A stretch of DNA of 64,000 bases from Micromonospora sp. ALFpr18c (GTDB taxonomy: Bacteria; Actinomycetota; Actinomycetes; Mycobacteriales; Micromonosporaceae): contig NZ_WBKR01000006.1 of NCBI RefSeq assembly GCF_008868155.1, forward strand, positions 1 through 64,000. The letters are read 5' to 3'. Below, one piece after another: positions 2,956 to 20,657 of the stretch; the stretch's first letter is position 1; each line of letters starts with the position of its first letter. The position numbers and the translations under genes were made by a program. Under the pieces are notes generated by a model. That model did not search any database and had not been told where the DNA came from. It saw only the letters and a program-made list of their open reading frames with translations.

Positions 2956-5442
2956 TCAGTCCGCCAGCACCGCCGCGGTGATCCGGTGCAGCGCGAACGT
3001 GTGCAGCATCTCGGTCCGCTCGTCCTCGGCGCGCAGGTAACCCGCACCGATCGACACCGGCTTGACCAGGCGGGACGCGGTCGCCCCGTGCGCGTCGACG
3101 TACCCGACCCAGACCAGCGCCTTGTCGCGGACCGCCTGCTGGAGCACCGCCAACGCCTCGCTGTGGGTGTGCGCCGGCACCGGACCGCCGCCGAGCCCCG
3201 CCGCCCCACCGCGCACCACCGCCGGTGCCCGTCGAGCCGCCCGCGCCGCCGCGTCACCGCGCCGGATGTGCTCCACCACGCCGAGCAGACGCGGCATGGG
3301 CAGCTTCGGGGCGGCCAGCGGATCGAGCGTCCGGGTGGTCATCGGAACCCGGGTCGGTGCCCGTCGGATCCGTGGCCGGGACAGCACCGTGCCGCCGGTC
3401 GCGTCCTCCTGCACCGGCGCGTACCCGGCGTCGCGCAGCGCGCCCAACAGCCGAGCGACCTGGTACGGGGTGCACAGCACCGTCGGCGCGAGCCGGCGCA
3501 GCGTCAACGGCTCCAACCGCCGGTCGGCCAGCACCTCGCTGAGCAGGGCCTCGTCGTCGCTGCGCAGGTACGCCCCGGCAAGGCCGACCCGCAACCCGCC
3601 GTGCTTACGGGCCACGTCGTCCACCAGGTAGGTGAGGCCCTGCGGCACCGGGGTCCGGGACCGCCGCCGGAACACGTCGTGCAGGTCGCCGGCCGAGTAG
3701 CCGGAATCCAACGCCCGCCGGACACTCGCCGTGGTGACCCGGTGCACGCTCGCCCCGCCGGCCGACTCGGGTTCGGTCATCGCCTCCAACTCCGCGGCCA
3801 GCGACGGCTCGGGTGGGCCGGGCACCACCACGGTCAGGTCGGCCTGCACCAGGAAATGGTCGACGGGTGCGGGCAGCAACGCGTCCAACGCCCGGGCGGC
3901 GTCGGACGGGTCGCCGCTCTCGACGTCCGCGTGCACGCCCAGCGGGTCGTCGGCACCCCGCCCGTCGGTCGACGTCAGGTCACCGAGCAGCAGCCGCCCG
4001 TACGAGGTGAGCGCCCCCAGCCCGGTGACACCGAGCTGCGCCGCCTCGGCCAGCACCTCCCGGTGGCCGGCCTCCCGGCCCCGGCTGCGCCGTGGCGCCC
4101 GCCAGTCCAGCAGGTCCTGCACCTCCTCCGGGGTGGGTGCGGTCGCCGGCTCCAGGTCGGCGAGCACACCGAGGACGGCCCGTCGGGTGCCCGGCGCTCC
4201 GGCCCGCTCGGCCTCGGCGGAGAGCGCGGTGATCGGCCGGTCCCGGTCGTCGCGGCGGCCGACCAGTCCCACCTGCCGGGTCATCGTCAGCCAGGCGCGG
4301 GCCAACTGCTCCCAGCGTTGGGCCAGTGAGGCAGCTCGCCACACCTCGTACCCGCCGGTCGGCATCACCTGCTGATCCACCCCGTACCGGGTGGTGGCGG
4401 CACCGGGCATCTCCAGCTCACCGGCGAGCCCCGCCGCGTATGCCACCTCCAGCAGCAGCGCGGTCATCGGTTCGTCCAGCCCGGCCGTGCGCGCCAGCCG
4501 CCGCAGGTCGCGGACACCGATGCCGCCCGAGCGCAGCACCGGCGCGGGTTCGGCGGCGAGCTGCTCCAGCAGTCCCTCGGTGTGCCGGACCACCTCCATG
4601 GTCTGACCGGCGCCGGCGGAGTCGACGGCCTTCGCCTCGCGGGGCGCGGCGGCCACCGGCGGTGGACTGGTGCGCAGCGGGCCGAGCGGGCCGCTGTCGC
4701 GGCGCAGCAGCAGGCCGACCTCGCGGGGCAGTTCGACCGTGCCGCTGGCCGTCGAGGAGCCGGCCGAGATGGGCACGAGCAGCCGGTTGTCGACCAGCCA
4801 GCGCACCGGGGAGCCGGCCGGCGCGCCGCCGTTGGTGGGGTCGGTGAGCACCGGGTCCTCCGCGCCGACGGGTGGCGCCTGCAGCGCGCCCGGGGGCACG
4901 CTGCCCACGGGCGGCCCGGCCGCCAGCCGGTCCAGGATCGCCCGGGCCGACGGGGGCGCGGCGAGCAGCGTCCGACGCAGTTTCGCCGGGTCCGCGCAGA
5001 GCGCGGCCGTGCGCGGGTCCAGCTCCGCGGCAGGCCGGCCGAGCCCGGCGGGGTACGGAGCCACCTCGTCGACGGCGGGTACCACCTGAAGCGCGTGCTC
5101 CGGGCCGTACAGCAGGAAGAGCGCTCGTAGCCTGCCCACGGCGGCCCGGACGGCCGTCGGGGCCGGCGGGTGGGGTCCGGTGGTCGCCATGGCGAGCACG
5201 GCGTCGGTGGCCGTGGTGCCGTCGTCCGGGGTCCGGGTGAGGCGGGCGGCGTCGAGGATCTGGAGGGTGAACTGGTCCAGTCCGTCCAGCGCGCGGGCCA
5301 CCGAGACCCGGGACTGGGCACGGATGGCCAGGGCGGAGATGTCGGCCGGCACGGGCACGACGAGGTCGGGCCGCAGCTGGAGGAGCGCGGCCAGCGAATC
5401 GTCGGGCAGCGACCGTAGGTGGTCGGCGAGTGAGGTGGTCAT
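2956..5442 (-). CDS. Helicase-associated (XPB/Ssl2-like, Helicase_C_3) domain protein
   Basis: This 828-residue protein begins MTTSLADHLRSLPDDSLAAL and resembles the actinobacterial family of Mycobacterium Rv0862c. That family carries a winged-helix region and a C-terminal XPB/Ssl2 helicase-associated domain but lacks Walker A and DEAH motifs. None are visible here, so it should not be an ATPase by itself. Its recurrent proximity to XPB in actinobacteria suggests a partner or loading role in repair; that is inference. The middle (residues 200-450) has proline- and alanine-rich linkers. The C-terminal 150 residues (VLCTPYQVARLLGALRDAGY onward) are the best conserved part. Confidence 0.85.
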   Translation of the reverse strand: MTTSLADHLRSLPDDSLAALLQLRPDLVVPVPADISALAIRAQSRVSVARALDGLDQFTLQILDAARLTRTPDDGTTATDAVLAMATTGPHPPAPTAVRAAVGRLRALFLLYGPEHALQVVPAVDEVAPYPAGLGRPAAELDPRTAALCADPAKLRRTLLAAPPSARAILDRLAAGPPVGSVPPGALQAPPVGAEDPVLTDPTNGGAPAGSPVRWLVDNRLLVPISAGSSTASGTVELPREVGLLLRRDSGPLGPLRTSPPPVAAAPREAKAVDSAGAGQTMEVVRHTEGLLEQLAAEPAPVLRSGGIGVRDLRRLARTAGLDEPMTALLLEVAYAAGLAGELEMPGAATTRYGVDQQVMPTGGYEVWRAASLAQRWEQLARAWLTMTRQVGLVGRRDDRDRPITALSAEAERAGAPGTRRAVLGVLADLEPATAPTPEEVQDLLDWRAPRRSRGREAGHREVLAEAAQLGVTGLGALTSYGRLLLGDLTSTDGRGADDPLGVHADVESGDPSDAARALDALLPAPVDHFLVQADLTVVVPGPPEPSLAAELEAMTEPESAGGASVHRVTTASVRRALDSGYSAGDLHDVFRRRSRTPVPQGLTYLVDDVARKHGGLRVGLAGAYLRSDDEALLSEVLADRRLEPLTLRRLAPTVLCTPYQVARLLGALRDAGYAPVQEDATGGTVLSRPRIRRAPTRVPMTTRTLDPLAAPKLPMPRLLGVVEHIRRGDAAARAARRAPAVVRGGAAGLGGGPVPAHTHSEALAVLQQAVRDKALVWVGYVDAHGATASRLVKPVSIGAGYLRAEDERTEMLHTFALHRITAAVLAD

Positions 5443-15839: not shown

Positions 15840-16349
15840 GTGGGAGTCGGACGCGCGCTGATGCTGGCCCTGGCGTTCCTCGCCGTGGCCAGCCTCCCGG
15901 CGGCGTTCGCCCTGCTCTTCTGCTACGACGAGATCCTCGACCGGGTGGTGTGTGGCTGGTCCGAGTGGCGTGAGCGCCGTCAGGAGAGACGCACCATCGC
16001 CCGCCTCGACCGGGCCATCGAGGCCGACGCGTTGACCCGGGACATCGACCTCAGCGAGTTCGACCGGGCCGATCGGCGGCCTCTGGAACAGCTGGCCGCC
16101 GATCTGCGCCGCCTCGGGGGCCAACGGATCGGCGGCGCCGGCCGGTCGATGGTCTGGCACGGCGCGGTGCTCCAGGCGTACGACGACCGGCTCCGACTGG
16201 CCTGCCGTGCTCTCGGCATCCCCGAACACCTCGCCGAGTTGGAGGGCGTCGACCAGGAGATCGAGCGGGTGCGGGTCGAGGGCGTGCTGCACGCCGCCGG
16301 CCTGACCCTGCCGGCGGCCCGCGCCGGGCACCGGCAACGCCACCACTGA
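15840..16349 (+). CDS. Hypothetical membrane-anchored protein
   Basis: This 169-residue protein has a single N-terminal membrane segment (about residues 7-28) and a long, charged helical cytosolic part. It contains an acidic DREIDLSEFD-like stretch (TRDIDLSEFDRADRRPLEQL). No catalytic motif is visible and I do not recognise a family. The GTG at 15840 is used, with ATG 15861 as alternative. It precedes the RNA phosphodiesterase gene by 13 nt, so the two are probably co-transcribed. Confidence 0.65.
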   Translation: MGVGRALMLALAFLAVASLPAAFALLFCYDEILDRVVCGWSEWRERRQERRTIARLDRAIEADALTRDIDLSEFDRADRRPLEQLAADLRRLGGQRIGGAGRSMVWHGAVLQAYDDRLRLACRALGIPEHLAELEGVDQEIERVRVEGVLHAAGLTLPAARAGHRQRHH

Positions 16350-16362
16350 GCGGGCCGACGGT

Positions 16363-16941
16363 GTGCGACTCTTCGTCGCGGTCGACCCGCCGGTCGAGGC
16401 GGTCAACCATCTCGGCGCACAGGTCGCCCGGCTGCGCGTGGGCGCGGCGGCGGCCGCCGGCACCAACGTCCGGCTCGCCGACCCGGCCCACCTGCATCTC
16501 ACCCTGGCCTTCCTCGGCGAGGTCGAGGCCGACCGGCTGGTCGAGGTGGAGAGTGCGCTCGGGTTGGCCGCCGAAGGGTTCCGCGACGGCCGGAACGCCG
16601 TACCCCGGTTGAGCCTCGGCGGCGGCGGCCGGTTCGGCCGGGACAGGTCCACCGTCCTCTGGGTGAACCTGCGGGGCGACGTGGAGTTGCTGCACGTCCT
16701 GGCCCGGCTGATCCGGTCCCGGCTGCGGCGCGCCGGACTGCCGTACGACGAGAAGCCGTTCCGTCCGCACCTGACCGTCGCCCGACCCGGCGCCCGGATG
16801 CCCCCGGCGGACGTCGAGGCCGACCGGGCCAGCCTGGACGGTTACCGGGGTCCACCCTGGCCGGTGGCTGAGCTGCTGCTGGTGCGCAGCCACCTCGGTG
16901 CCCCACCCCACTACGACCGGCTCGCCGCCTGGCCGCTCTGA
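16363..16941 (+). CDS. thpR: RNA 2',3'-cyclic 3'-phosphodiesterase
   Basis: This is a 192-residue 2H phosphoesterase with the two signature HxTx motifs, HLTL (residues 45-48) and HLTV (136-139). It begins RLFVAVDPP like the family. Members hydrolyse RNA 2',3'-cyclic phosphate ends, or ligate tRNA halves in the reverse reaction; they were formerly named LigT. The start is GTG 16363. The 3' end overlaps the convergent regulator gene by 31 nt. The physiological substrate in actinomycetes is not known. Confidence 0.9.
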   Translation: MRLFVAVDPPVEAVNHLGAQVARLRVGAAAAAGTNVRLADPAHLHLTLAFLGEVEADRLVEVESALGLAAEGFRDGRNAVPRLSLGGGGRFGRDRSTVLWVNLRGDVELLHVLARLIRSRLRRAGLPYDEKPFRPHLTVARPGARMPPADVEADRASLDGYRGPPWPVAELLLVRSHLGAPPHYDRLAAWPL

Positions 16942-17675
16942 TCCGGCGCTGCCGGGGTGGCGGCGGCAGGCCTGGTGTGCAGGACCTCGCGGGCCTGTTC
17001 GGCGGCGCGGGTGATGCTCTCGCTCATGAAGTCGAGGAAGCGGGCGATGTTTTCCAGCCGGGCGGCGGCGGGGGTGTGCGAGCCGAGAAGGGCGACGCCC
17101 TGGCGTGCGGTGGCGACGAGTTGGTCGTTGGCGCGGGCGCTGGCGATCGTCGCCTGGTAGAAGAGTTCGTCGTCGACGAGGTAGTGGTCGCGGCGGCGCT
17201 CGTCACGCTGGCGGCGGACGAGGCTCTGGCTCTCCAGGAAGGCGATCGCCTTGGAGATGGACGCCGGGCTGACCTGAAGGCGCCGGGCGAGGTCGGAGGC
17301 GGTGAGGCTGCCCGAGTCGCTGGTGAACAGGCAGGTCAGCACCCGGGCCCCCATCCTGTTCAGACCCGAGCTCATGAGGACGGTGGTGAACGTCTCCTCG
17401 TACTCGGCCACGGCCCGGGCGTCGCGCCCGTGCGGCTGGAGGGCCGACTCGGCCGTTCGGGACGAGGACGGGCTGCGCCGGTGTGCCCGCACCTCAGTGG
17501 CGCGGTGTGCCAGGTCGGCACGGTAGGCGGTGGGACCACCGTTTCGCATCACCTCACGCGTGATCGTCGAGGTGGGGCGGTCGAGGCGTCGGGCGATCTC
17601 CGCGTAGGGGAGGTTGTCGGCCAGCCCTGACGCGATCTGCTGGCGTTCCTGCTGGGTGAGCCTGCCTCCCGGCAT
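16911..17675 (-). CDS. GbsR/MarR-type regulator with extra N-terminal HTH
   Basis: This 254-residue protein combines two DNA-binding modules. Residues 4-50 (LTQQERQQIASGLADNLPYA, then EIARRLDRPTSTITREV) match the HTH_38 helix-turn-helix seen in IS30-type transposases. Residues about 95-165 form a MarR/GbsR winged helix (SDLARRLQVSPASISKAIAF, wing RRQRDERRRDHY). The C-terminus is helical and may dimerise. The ATG at 17673-17675 has GAGGAG 6 nt upstream. It is divergent from the DUF4097-like gene, and the shared 240-bp region holds several TTGCAA-type palindromes that are likely its operators (inference). Confidence 0.85.
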   Translation of the reverse strand: MPGGRLTQQERQQIASGLADNLPYAEIARRLDRPTSTITREVMRNGGPTAYRADLAHRATEVRAHRRSPSSSRTAESALQPHGRDARAVAEYEETFTTVLMSSGLNRMGARVLTCLFTSDSGSLTASDLARRLQVSPASISKAIAFLESQSLVRRQRDERRRDHYLVDDELFYQATIASARANDQLVATARQGVALLGSHTPAAARLENIARFLDFMSESITRAAEQAREVLHTRPAAATPAAPDQSGQAASRS

Positions 17676-17742
17676 CGCGTTCTCCTCGTGGTCCTGCACG
17701 GCGTTGCCCCGAGCCGTCACCATAGCGTTCACCGGCAATCTA

Positions 17743-17845
17743 TTGCAACGCGCCCCGCACTCGCTGTTGCGTTATGCGTGAAGCCATTGCAATGATTTGA
17801 CCGCTCTGAGCTGCAAATAGGCGAAGCCAGTGCAACAAATGCATT
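17743..17845. promoter_or_regulatory. Cluster of TTGCAA-type palindromes between divergent genes
   Basis: Sites are TTGCAA (17743-17748), the 10-bp palindrome CATTGCAATG (17785-17794) and AATGCATT (17838-17845), with GTTGCGTTATGC and AGTGCAAC half-sites between. This stretch is strikingly AT-rich for this genome. The density of related half-sites in one divergent promoter region suggests multiple operators for the adjacent two-HTH regulator. Confidence 0.6.
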
Positions 17846-17915
17846 GCCTGATGTCTGAACGCAACGTAGCGTTTCCGGTGTTGGAAAGATTGAACGACGA
17901 ACATGGGAGAGCATG

Positions 17916-18581
17916 ATGCAGACGTTCGACACCCCCGCCCCGATCTCGACCGTCCTGAACATCCCCGCCGGGAGCATCCGGTTCATCGCCGCGGAGCGCA
18001 CCGACACCACCGTCGAGGTCCGGCCCACCGACCCCGGCCGGAGCCGCGACACGAAGGCCGCCGAGCGCACCGCCGTCACTTACGCCGACGGCGTCCTGCG
18101 GGTCACGACCGCCGGCACCGAGAACCGGCTCCTCGGCCCCTCCGGATCCCTGGAGGTCACCGTCCGGCTGCCCGCCGGCTCCCGCGTGGAGGCCAGGACG
18201 GCCAGCGCCGAACTCCGCGGCGTCGGACGCCTCGGCGACGTCGCCTTCGACGGCGCGTACCGGCAGATCAAGATCGACGAGGCCGCGAGCGTCCGCCTCA
18301 CCGCGATCGACGGCGACGTCGAGATCGGCCGGCTCATCGGACCCGCCGAGATCAGCACCGCGCGGGGCGACATCCGGATCGCCGAAGCCGGGCGCGGCAC
18401 GGTCGTGCTCCGCACCCAGTCCGGTGACATCACGGTCGCCGCCGCCGTCGGCGTCTCGGCCGCCCTGCACGCCGACACCGGCCACGGCCGGGTCAGCAAC
18501 AGCCTCAAGAACGACGGCACCGTCGAACTCGACCTCCACGCCACCACCCTCCAGGGCGACATCACCGCCCGCAGCCTCTGA
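17916..18581 (+). CDS. DUF4097-like beta-helix protein
   Basis: This 221-residue protein has short repeated beta-strand units ([42 protein letters not shown]), typical of the DUF4097/adhesin-like right-handed beta-helix families. It has no signal peptide or membrane segment, so it is probably cytosolic. The ATG at 17916 has GGGAGA 6 nt upstream; the ATG at 17913 is an alternative. It is followed 15 nt later by the alpha/beta hydrolase gene. The biochemical role is unknown in this family. Confidence 0.75.
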   Translation: MQTFDTPAPISTVLNIPAGSIRFIAAERTDTTVEVRPTDPGRSRDTKAAERTAVTYADGVLRVTTAGTENRLLGPSGSLEVTVRLPAGSRVEARTASAELRGVGRLGDVAFDGAYRQIKIDEAASVRLTAIDGDVEIGRLIGPAEISTARGDIRIAEAGRGTVVLRTQSGDITVAAAVGVSAALHADTGHGRVSNSLKNDGTVELDLHATTLQGDITARSL

Positions 18582-18596
18582 ACAGGACGGATGGAC

Positions 18597-19412
18597 ATGA
18601 CCAAGAGCAGCGCGTCCTCGACCAGCACGACGTGGACCGGCCTGGTGCCGGTCGACGACACGGCCCTGGCCGTCACCGACACCGGCGGCCCCGGCACCCC
18701 GGTGGTCTACCTCAACGGCCAGTTCGCCACCGAGGGGTACTGGCGGCGGGTCATCGCCGAACTGGGAGCGGGGTGGCGGCACATCACCTACGACGAGCGG
18801 GCGCGCGGCCGGAAATCGAAGCGCTCAGCGGACTACTCCTTCGAGGCTGCCGTCCGGGACGTGCACGCCGTCCTCGCGGCCCGAGGCGTGGACCGGGCGG
18901 TCCTGGTGGGCTGGTCCTACGGCGCCGTCGTCGCGGCGCACTGGGCCAACCGCAACCCGGAACGGACGATCGGCACGGTCCTGGTCGACGGCGCGTTCCC
19001 GCACGACTGGCTCGACGAGGCCATGGCGCAGCGGATCCGGAAGATGTTCCGCCGGATGAACCTGTTCATGCCGCTGCTGCGCCCCACCGGCCTGACCCCA
19101 CGGATGAACGCCGAACAGATGGCGGACAGCAACATCGAACTCGGCGAACTCTCCCGTGAACGCGAGCTGGGCCCGGTGCTGGACAGCATCACCGTCCCGG
19201 TGCGGTACGTCGTCGCCTCCGGAACGTCCCTCGGCAGTCGTGGTGACGAGCAGGAGACGATCCGCGCCAGCCTCGACGCGGTGACCGCCCGCAACCCGCA
19301 CATCCAGATCGCCGCGAAGGTCGCCAGCAACCACGGCGCGATCCTCAAGAAGGACTTCGAGGCCGTCGCCAAGGCCGTCCGCGAGGTCGCCGTCCTCAAG
19401 GCCCGCGACTGA
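18597..19412 (+). CDS. Alpha/beta hydrolase
   Basis: This 271-residue alpha/beta hydrolase has the nucleophile elbow GWSYG, the oxyanion-side motif VYLNGQFAT and a late histidine in SNHGAI. The acid residue is probably in the segment following PVRYVVASG. The substrate is unknown; it could be an esterase or a haloperoxidase-like enzyme. ATG 18591 is the alternative start. It follows the DUF4097-like gene and shares the promoter opposite the two-HTH regulator, so it is probably its target. Confidence 0.85.
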   Translation: MTKSSASSTSTTWTGLVPVDDTALAVTDTGGPGTPVVYLNGQFATEGYWRRVIAELGAGWRHITYDERARGRKSKRSADYSFEAAVRDVHAVLAARGVDRAVLVGWSYGAVVAAHWANRNPERTIGTVLVDGAFPHDWLDEAMAQRIRKMFRRMNLFMPLLRPTGLTPRMNAEQMADSNIELGELSRERELGPVLDSITVPVRYVVASGTSLGSRGDEQETIRASLDAVTARNPHIQIAAKVASNHGAILKKDFEAVAKAVREVAVLKARD

Positions 19413-19440
19413 CCTCGGCCAGCATCCGCTGCCGTCGCCC

Positions 19441-19511
19441 GCGATCGTGCACATTGGGTCGTCGATCTGCCCCGAATATGTGTTGTGCCGGGGCAGAAAG
19501 TGCAAGATCGC
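19441..19511. repeat. Nested inverted repeat, REP-like
   Basis: The outer arms GCGATCGTGCAC (19441-19452) and GTGCAAGATCGC (19500-19511) pair at 11 of 12 positions. The inner arms CTGCCCC (19467-19473) and GGGGCAG (19490-19496) pair perfectly. The nested structure and location between convergent genes suit a dispersed intergenic palindrome. I believe similar GCGATCTTGCAC elements recur in Micromonospora genomes, but cannot check. Confidence 0.65.
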
Positions 19512-19538
19512 GGGGAGGGGCTGGCCGTGCCTCGCGCC

Positions 19539-19563
19539 GACGGGTGGCGAACCGCCACCCGTC
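19539..19563. terminator. Bidirectional hairpin terminator
   Basis: A perfect 11-bp stem GACGGGTGGCG with a 3-nt loop lies 12 bp beyond the sepH stop and between two convergent genes, so it can serve both. Confidence 0.7.
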
Positions 19564-19574
19564 AACGCGAAGCG

Positions 19575-20657
19575 TCAGGAGGACTCACGCGCGGCGGGGC
19601 CACTGCCGAAGAGCACGTCGTCCCAGCTCGGCAGCCGCTTGCGCGGCTTGCCGTTGGCATCGGTGGATTCACCGGCGGCTGCTGCCGCAGTGCCGGTGCG
19701 GCGGGGCCGCAGCACCGCCAGCGACGGCACGGCCGGCACCTCCTTGGGCGCGTCCGAGTCGTCGTCGAAGGCCGAACCCTGGCCGCCGCCGAGCAGCGCC
19801 GCGGCGCCCCCGCCGACCGGCCGCTGCCGGGGAGCGTCCGACCCGGCAAGGGCAGCCGGCGTACGCGGCTCCAGACCGCGACCCGACGAGGCGCCGAGCG
19901 GGCGGTCCAGGGAGGCGAGCAGCGCGTCCCGGCCGGCGCGGATCGGGTCGCGACCGGGTCGCGGGTGCTCCGACGCCGCCGGAAGCCCGTGCCCGCCACG
20001 GCTCGGCTCGCCGCGCGACGGACCGGGCAGGGCGTGCCCACCCCGCTCCGGCGCCGGCTCCTGGCCGAGAATCGGCGTGGGCCGCTCGGCGCACAGGTAC
20101 TGTGCCATGTCGTCGTGCGGGGTGACCGCCTGCCGGGTCTTGTCGAGATCCCAGATCGCCTGCGCGGTGGCCTTGCCGGACGGCCAGGTCGCGATGATCC
20201 GCCAGGTGCCGTCGTCCCGCCGGTACGCGTCCCAGGAGATCTTCTCGGTGTCGATGCCGTGCTGGCTCAGCCGACCGTTGACCACCTCGGCGAGCGGGGT
20301 GGGCTTCTCCGCGCCCTTGAGGCGGGTGCGGCGGGCGTGCTGGGCGAGCATCGCCCGCTCCTGGAGCACCGGGCCCGCGTAGCGCAGCACCCGATCGACG
20401 GGCACGCCGGCGATCCGGGCGACGTCCTCGGCGGACTCGCCGGAGCGGATCCGGGCCTGAATGTCGCGAGGGGACAGCGACGGGATCGGGTCAGCGGCCG
20501 ACGGCGGTGCCACCGGGAGCGGCGGCGCGCCGGGCTCGGGGTGCAACGCGCCGGCGATCCGGTCGTCGATAGGCAGGGCGAGCAGCCGCCCGACCTCGTC
20601 GGCGAGAACCAGGGCATGGCCGTCCTCGGAGAGGGCGACGAAGCGTACTGGGCGCAT
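19575..20657 (-). CDS. sepH: Septation protein SepH (DUF3071)
   Basis: This 360-residue actinobacterial cell-division protein stimulates FtsZ assembly (family knowledge from Streptomyces and Mycobacterium). The N-terminal DUF3071 region (residues 1-170) starts MRPVRFVALSEDGHALVLAD and includes a helix-turn-helix-like stretch (GESAEDVARIAGVPVDRVLR). Residues 190-330 are a disordered proline/glycine-rich linker. The C-terminus ends with the conserved RKRLPSWDDVLFG motif. The ATG at 20655-20657 gives the standard N-terminus; the longer frame upstream is not conserved-looking. Confidence 0.93.
   Translation of the reverse strand: MRPVRFVALSEDGHALVLADEVGRLLALPIDDRIAGALHPEPGAPPLPVAPPSAADPIPSLSPRDIQARIRSGESAEDVARIAGVPVDRVLRYAGPVLQERAMLAQHARRTRLKGAEKPTPLAEVVNGRLSQHGIDTEKISWDAYRRDDGTWRIIATWPSGKATAQAIWDLDKTRQAVTPHDDMAQYLCAERPTPILGQEPAPERGGHALPGPSRGEPSRGGHGLPAASEHPRPGRDPIRAGRDALLASLDRPLGASSGRGLEPRTPAALAGSDAPRQRPVGGGAAALLGGGQGSAFDDDSDAPKEVPAVPSLAVLRPRRTGTAAAAAGESTDANGKPRKRLPSWDDVLFGSGPAARESS

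Follow-up and report, generated by a model that had tools for sequence, protein, structure and literature searches.

Introduction

Short regulators of the GbsR/MarR family that lie near drug exporters, transposases of the IS30 family, DUF4097 (Toastrack) proteins of Psp/Lia systems, and antibiotic clusters in which a DUF4097 gene accompanies a DrrAB-type exporter are the closest described relatives of a module found at positions 16911-19412 of a 64,000-nucleotide stretch of Micromonospora sp. ALFpr18c DNA (contig NZ_WBKR01000006.1, positions 1 to 64,000; hereafter the window). In this module, a regulator with two helix-turn-helix (HTH) domains, one of IS30 type and one of GbsR/MarR type, is encoded divergently to a DUF4097 gene across a shared promoter of 240 bp, and an alpha/beta hydrolase gene occupies a third slot. 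The short GbsR/MarR regulators resemble the module in belonging to the same winged HTH (wHTH) family and in having a palindrome near the target promoter, but they lack the N-terminal IS30 HTH and the GCAAC array, and their palindrome is TTCACAANNTTGTGAA. The IS30 transposase (E. coli InsI1) has an HTH homologous to that of the regulator and a GCAAC core in its terminal repeats; unlike it, the regulator has no catalytic domain, and its sites lie in a promoter rather than at element ends. Toastrack proteins of Psp/Lia systems (LiaG; Listeria lmo0601) share Pfam family and fold with the module protein, whereas the latter stands alone at about 221 amino acids, and the regulator encoded opposite it has two HTHs and a fixed operator array. 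According to two reports, Toastrack/DUF4097 proteins occur beside regulators and ATP-binding cassette (ABC) transporters (PMC11237479, PMC6624303), and the gene table of the lunaemycin cluster places a DUF4097 gene beside a DrrA-type gene (PMC9866976). DrrAB-type exporters of such clusters have a counterpart in copies of the module with a DrrA-type ATPase (20 of 95 loci), but in the window the slot holds a serine hydrolase and not an exporter.

Each of these domains is already known; what appears to be new is a local regulator of MarR type in which one HTH was apparently taken over from a transposase and whose operator array resembles transposon ends. Among the matches listed in a literature search, with most subscription papers outside its scope, none described the two-HTH family or its operator; the one listed paper in which HTH_38 and MarR both appear concerns transcription-factor abundance (PMC7017128).

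We regard it as rather probable that the module is a portable self-regulated cassette in which the IS30-type HTH reads GCAAC boxes, the wHTH reads a palindrome, and departure of the repressor frees a protective gene. The further idea, that a transposase end-recognition domain was co-opted with its recognition sequence, that the promoter was put together from transposon-end boxes at near-fixed helical spacing, and that the resulting two-headed protein clamps two promoters and gives portable control of interchangeable protective genes, is held tentatively, as somewhat more apt to fail than to stand. Eukaryotes have many well-known regulators that derive their DNA-binding parts from transposases; apparent joint movement of an HTH and its recognition motif in a bacterial family would, if true, be a clean and easily tested case. 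A sensor-operator cassette on interchangeable protective genes could help to find inducing compounds, self-resistance genes, and ready-made actinomycete promoters.

A Conserved Array in the Shared Promoter

Homologs of the regulator were searched for in 61 related genomes and in one genome collection, which contains at least 538 relatives and from which the 80 best were taken, so that collection counts favor close homologs. The 104 intergenic sequences recovered, less four with identical first 150 bases and five from distant homologs, gave 95 unique promoters, 10 of them without a recognized adjacent DUF4097 gene; a locus with a truncated regulator (L049) was left out of the loci counted. In the alignment of these promoters the conserved blocks are, in order, ATAGCGTTCAC, CATTGCAA (box S1), GTTGC (S2), TTGCAAC (S3), GCAAC (S4a), GTTG (S4b), GCAACGTAGC (S5), TTTC, GAAAC, and a ribosome-binding site. 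The 67 columns chosen as sites average 0.95 in conservation vs 0.57 for the other 167 intergenic columns, a description and not a test, since site columns were chosen for their conservation. Judged from the alignment, the conserved units are GCAAC/GTTGC half-sites, with the TTGCAA core retained at S1 and S3; S1 has ATGCAA in 16 of the promoters and, read on the reverse strand, is TTGCAA in 79 and TTGCAT in 16. S1 and S2 are 23 or 24 bp apart in 87/95, S2 and S3 20 or 21 bp in 85/95, and S3 and S5 71-73 bp in 82/95. Going by the NCBI names of the 80 named loci, conservation of the promoter extends over at least seven families of actinobacteria.

The earlier note on this DNA had described an AT-rich array of TTGCAA/ATGCAT-type palindromes and had proposed phylogenetic footprinting as one check, with lack of conservation of the palindromes as one of two outcomes that would speak against it. 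The sites proved to be conserved in the 95 promoters, and the low GC content was borne out (0.545 in 17700-17899 vs 0.66-0.83 in non-touching 200-base windows of 16000-19999). TTGCAA occurs only twice in the 64 kb of the window (17743, 17787) and ATGCAT once (17839), all three in the shared promoter. The choice of unit has to be revised: ATGCAT lies between the two S4 boxes, in a spacer that varies among the promoters, and was rejected as a site because it is not conserved. In the intergenic stretch of the window TTGC/GCAA occurs 11 times, where dinucleotide shuffles average 4.6 (2 of 2000 as high), and GTTGC/GCAAC five times, where they average 1.2 (12 of 2000 as high). On this single sequence the chance test is moderate only, and it is the comparison of the 95 homologous promoters that, at the level of sequence, settles the array.

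The boxes stand in near-constant register with two putative promoters. TANNNT at the candidate −10 of the regulator gene lies 18 bp from TTGCA[AT] in 89 and 17 bp in 6 of the 95 promoters, and on the DUF4097 side TTG is separated from TAGC[GT]T by 17 bp in 87/95 and by 16 bp in three, five being without fit. Boxes S1-S5 would overlap both predicted −35 regions, and a TTTC-N8-GAAA palindrome would lie at the predicted DUF4097 start; when the intergenic stretch of the window was shuffled 2000 times, such a palindrome arose in 0.45% of the shuffles. A terminator scan of the locus found none.

The regulator looks local in its action, because only a single exact S5 promoter (the sole exact GCAACGTAGCNTT) and a single array occur in the genome of the window. 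A wider regulon is not claimed, matches to the S5 promoter at one mismatch numbering 6 forward and 3 reverse vs 4 and 3 for a reversed control.

Proposed Assignment of Sites to the Two HTH Domains

The earlier note had suggested that the two HTHs may read two half-site types. Two conserved classes do exist, the GCAAC boxes and the palindrome TTTC-N8-GAAA (90/95 promoters), and we infer which HTH goes with which. The IS30-type HTH is favored as the GCAAC reader because of three natural comparisons, with IS30 ends, short GbsR/MarR relatives, and distant fusion regulators. The wHTH as reader of TTTC-N8-GAAA is the weaker half of the pairing, because the palindrome is present in 90/95 promoters but in 0/5 distant ones.

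From residue 6 onward the regulator aligns with E. coli IS30 InsI1 from residue 59, in the second HTH of the transposase, which is the one that binds the element ends. When the flanks of five multi-copy IS30 groups were read by eye, GCAAC or GTTGC was present in the ends of all five, four of them having it on both sides and the fifth on one side only. A motif-blind end search of 15 IS30 elements, with the IS30-type loci L084-L087 (single copies) and L185 left out, gave clear ends in six, under a score limit (at least 14 and above shuffles) that was set after the scores had been seen; five of the six, including E. coli IS30A, have GCAAC at both ends. L198 was borderline and without GCAAC, and eight elements did not beat shuffles; L184 and L202, not above shuffles, still show GCAAC at both printed ends. 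When the search was anchored on the annotated gene, GCAAC was found at both ends of L183 and L184.

The second comparison concerns 16 short GbsR/MarR loci (L055-L070, of which L069 is in the window's own genome). These have no IS30 HTH, and the array is absent from all 16, with at most one box in 200 bp. The TTCACAANNTTGTGAA palindrome lies upstream of their regulator genes, exactly in 9/16, with up to one mismatch in 12/16, and with up to two in 15/16, and is a candidate second conserved operator; most of the genes are divergent to an ABC ATPase gene (12/15 by motif check, L069 by eye). Three of these relatives (L055, L058, and L059) have the recognition helix VSPAAIS, nearly the same as that of the regulator, yet no array.

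Five distant fusion regulators (L050-L054, 43-50% identity) make up the third comparison: TTGC/GCAA boxes are kept in 5/5 although other genes are faced. The facing gene encodes a beta-lactamase-type hydrolase in L050 and, by similarity, in L054, and a leucine-carboxyl-methyltransferase-type protein in L051. In L053 (4678-6096) the genes divergent to the regulator are for a cytochrome P450 and a ferredoxin (Pfam), and from this apparent target the switch may serve redox enzymes too. A Streptomonospora plasmid has a fusion regulator opposite a DUF418 gene, and TTGCAA/GCAAC boxes are present there as well.

These comparisons also bear on whether the protein is an ordinary MarR repressor, its wHTH reading the GCAAC/TTGCAA boxes and its N-terminal HTH adding affinity or contacts between dimers only. 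MarR-type operators can hold TTGC/GCAA half-sites, which speaks for that arrangement and against the pairing proposed here, and the recognition-helix residues of the wHTH are as invariant as residues of the N-terminal HTH, which also speaks for it; however, all 16 short loci, some with a near-identical helix, lack the array, 15 of them have the TTCACAANNTTGTGAA palindrome within two mismatches, and GCAAC recurs in IS30 ends without any MarR domain, so that we rate it as rather unlikely.

One observation on IS30 elements stands beside these. Ends of the L082 element carry GTTGCATC at the GCAAC place and those of L180 carry GCATC, and setting the recognition helices of L180 and L082 against those of other IS30 elements could yield a specificity code for the HTH. 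On the tentative co-option idea, resident IS30 elements could be further targets of the regulator, through their ends.

Proposed Mode of Action

DNA binding, the pairing of HTH with site, repression over activation, the ligand, and the protective role are all matters that we infer, and the following sequence of events is put forward on that footing. A dimeric repressor of GbsR/MarR type would have gained an IS30-family transposase HTH at its N-terminus, and this HTH would read the GCAAC/GTTGC boxes, the core of which is also present in IS30 transposon ends. At near-fixed distances, S1 would cover the regulator gene's −35, S4b/S5 would cover the −35 and spacer on the DUF4097 side, and the wHTH would read TTTC-N8-GAAA in the DUF4097 start region. 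The bound protein could then hold down both divergent promoters until a small-molecule ligand of the GbsR/MarR domain, or a signal passed through the Toastrack protein, releases it; release would turn on DUF4097 together with the third-slot protective enzyme or exporter, which in the window would be a serine alpha/beta hydrolase.

Several points weigh against this scheme. The clear-ended element L180 has GCATC at the expected place of GCAAC, L179 and L181 have GCAAC at one end only in the gene-anchored search, and L198, L200, L201, and L203 gave no convincing GCAAC ends in the motif-blind search. The short GbsR/MarR relatives are only 32-40% identical to the regulator, and their wHTH may simply have another specificity. 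TTTC-N8-GAAA is absent from 5/5 distant homologs, a generic sigma-70 scan found no promoter at the locus, and the third slot has no assigned gene, or is absent or cut off, in 32/95 loci.

An activator or dual regulator, with S4/S5 recruiting RNA polymerase to a weak DUF4097 promoter and S1 repressing the regulator gene, would suit two features of the promoter region, namely that both putative promoters fall below the threshold of the sigma-70 scan and that S2-S4a lie upstream of the DUF4097 −35. S4b and S5, however, overlap the −35 and spacer of that promoter, and a protein bound over these usually blocks polymerase, which leaves activation an unlikely account of the switch.

Module Composition and the Third Slot

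A DUF4097 gene is divergent to the regulator in 70/80 collection loci; of the ten loci without one, L129 and L164 are cut short at a contig end and L112 has only a 38-amino-acid frame resembling a DUF4097 start. The hydrolase is less constant. A gene of the window's alpha/beta hydrolase type fills the third slot in 35/95 loci (32 of these with DUF4097), a DrrA-type ABC ATPase in the 20 mentioned above (70-90% identical to the query, the query itself aside), a beta-lactamase-type hydrolase in 5/95 (one weak, 28%), an S9-type peptidase in two, and an SDR in one; the slot names rest on Pfam/NCBIfam assignments of query proteins, except for the S9-type peptidase, which was named by eye. The neighborhood check proposed in the earlier note, which had posited a three-gene module, thus upholds co-occurrence of regulator and DUF4097, but the third gene varies and its slot is swapped. 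Regulator and DUF4097 gene appear, on this tally, as the conserved core, with a third slot whose occupant is swapped; a fixed three-gene operon was rejected on the same counts.

In L109, L149, and L174, which lack an adjacent DUF4097 gene and have one for an enzyme after the promoter, the array is retained. Because it stays in these loci and boxes stay in 5/5 distant regulators facing other genes, the array, by position, goes with the regulator and not with DUF4097.

The third slot suggests protection against small molecules, because of its DrrA-type ATPases, of which the two proteins tested (the L040 query and a plasmid homolog) score above the TIGR01188 cutoff, and because of one copy among aromatic-polyketide genes. 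This copy (L186; Streptomyces sp. NBC_00868 plasmid, NZ_CP108816.1 45044-53244) has DUF4097, an ABC ATPase, and a permease, and its neighbors are ketosynthase, chain-length factor, acyl carrier protein, and aromatase genes, a placement as expected of a self-resistance unit. The polyketide-cluster association rests on this one record; as a general feature it was rejected, since a chain-length-factor query gave no match in the oriented loci.

That the module serves envelope stress in a Psp/Lia-like manner, with DUF4097/Toastrack as the real effector or sensor and an incidental third gene, is improbable: DUF4097 is the more constant partner, and Toastrack proteins have been proposed as submembrane platforms near transporters and regulators (PMC11237479), but the array persists without an adjacent DUF4097 gene, and the Pfam match, which spans amino acids 21-219 of 222, leaves little room for a membrane domain. 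A general Pfam scan of the six genes around the locus found no PspA, PspC, or LiaI-LiaF-TM partner among them.

One locus points either to natural loss of the switch by deletion or to an error in assembly. In L049 (same-genus genome G024, about 4600-4850) the regulator, matched from amino acid 44, and the hydrolase, from amino acid 72, run together, and the promoter, DUF4097, and the regulator start are gone.

Distribution and Inheritance

The module of the window lies between a ligT-type phosphodiesterase gene, which flanks the regulator gene, and sepH. In 8/8 same-genus genomes examined, ligT and sepH are neighbors, with none of the three module genes found between them; two genomes have gaps of 40 and about 180 bp, and in the other six the two genes lie about 1.1-1.2 kb apart. 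Two of the eight have the module at another place. The suggestion that the locus is a self-contained unit is supported in part, in that the regulator-DUF4097 unit, so far as gene order tells, behaves as a cassette; the comparison gives presence and absence, with gain and loss not separated.

Across the order the regulator is patchy, being found in 26/150 genomes at E <= 1e-40. A quick regulator tree, in which support is weak for 40/97 inner branches, requires at least 10 changes of slot label. Because this compares with a minimum of 4 and a shuffled mean of 24.2, the third slot would seem to be inherited in blocks, yet swapped repeatedly. The same tree requires at least 23 changes of genus label among 19 genera and 15 of family label among 7 families, which suggests transfer within the limits of a quick and weakly supported tree.

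Features of the Locus

Coordinates are collected in Table 1.

Table 1. Genes, coding segments, and promoter elements of the module, in window positions.
Feature	Position	Strand	Remarks
Regulator coding sequence	16911-17675	−	254 amino acids; IS30-type HTH and GbsR/MarR wHTH; Pfam HTH_38, MarR
Codons of MarR wHTH	17196-17366	−	Amino acids 104-160; MarR 1.3e-10, MarR_2 2.7e-9
Codons of N-terminal IS30-type HTH	17541-17663	−	Amino acids 5-45; Pfam HTH_38 E 1.2e-16
Putative −10 of regulator promoter	17719-17724	−	TATGGT; TANNNT in 95/95
Box S1	17741-17748		TATTGCAA (consensus CATTGCAA); doubles as putative regulator −35
Box S2	17766-17773		GTTGCGTT (reverse complement AACGCAAC); GTTGC block 0.96-1.00; GTTGC[GA]TT in 87/95
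Box S3	17786-17793		ATTGCAAT (consensus TTGCAAC); block 0.80-1.00
Box S4a	17832-17836	+	GCAAC; block 0.81-1.00
Box S4b	17843-17849	+	ATTGCCT (consensus GTTG); TTGCCT 17844-17849 is putative DUF4097 −35
Box S5 and putative −10	17861-17872	+	GCAAC (17861-17865), TAGCGT (17867-17872); GCAACGTAGC in 90/95
TTTC-N8-GAAA palindrome	17872-17887		Candidate wHTH site; 90/95 promoters
Ribosome-binding site of DUF4097 gene	17906-17909	+	GGAG; 0.91-0.95 conserved
DUF4097 (Toastrack) gene	17916-18581 (alternative start 17913)	+	221 amino acids from conserved ATG; Pfam E 2.2e-9
Alpha/beta hydrolase gene	18591-19412	+	273 amino acids; Pfam Abhydrolase; occupies swappable third slot

The start of the regulator gene was fixed by alignment with 23 homologs; the open reading frame list begins it at an upstream TTG instead. 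The combination of IS30-like HTH and GbsR/MarR domain claimed in the earlier note is supported by Pfam, with a MarR match at amino acids 111-159 and both MarR and MarR_2 above cutoff. The AlphaFold model (monomer) has helices at 8-44, a low-confidence segment at 53-81, the wHTH region at 86-166, and long helices at 169-197 and 202-233. Its winged part matches 4nb5 with a Z score of 14.2 and a root-mean-square deviation of 2.5 over 147 aligned residues, and the VIA structure matches listed for the model are all to the winged domain. A DDE catalytic domain is absent from the 254 residues, the 12 Pfam families listed being HTH-type DNA-binding families.

The DUF4097 protein scores 37.5 bits against a Pfam cutoff of 22.9; its model is beta-rich, with a pLDDT (predicted local distance difference test) of 87, and its Foldseek matches in the PDB are the Toastrack/adhesin structures 3pet, 4qrk, and 4opw. 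The hydrolase has a nucleophile elbow, GWSYG, with Ser109, and a candidate His248. Its best PDB sequence match is a haloalkane dehalogenase, a family that uses an Asp nucleophile; this identity was rejected on the Ser elbow and on an NCBIfam PRK03592 score of 64 bits vs a cutoff of 241. At the other edge of the module, the regulator and ligT-type genes are convergent and overlap by 31 bp at their ends (window 16911-16941).

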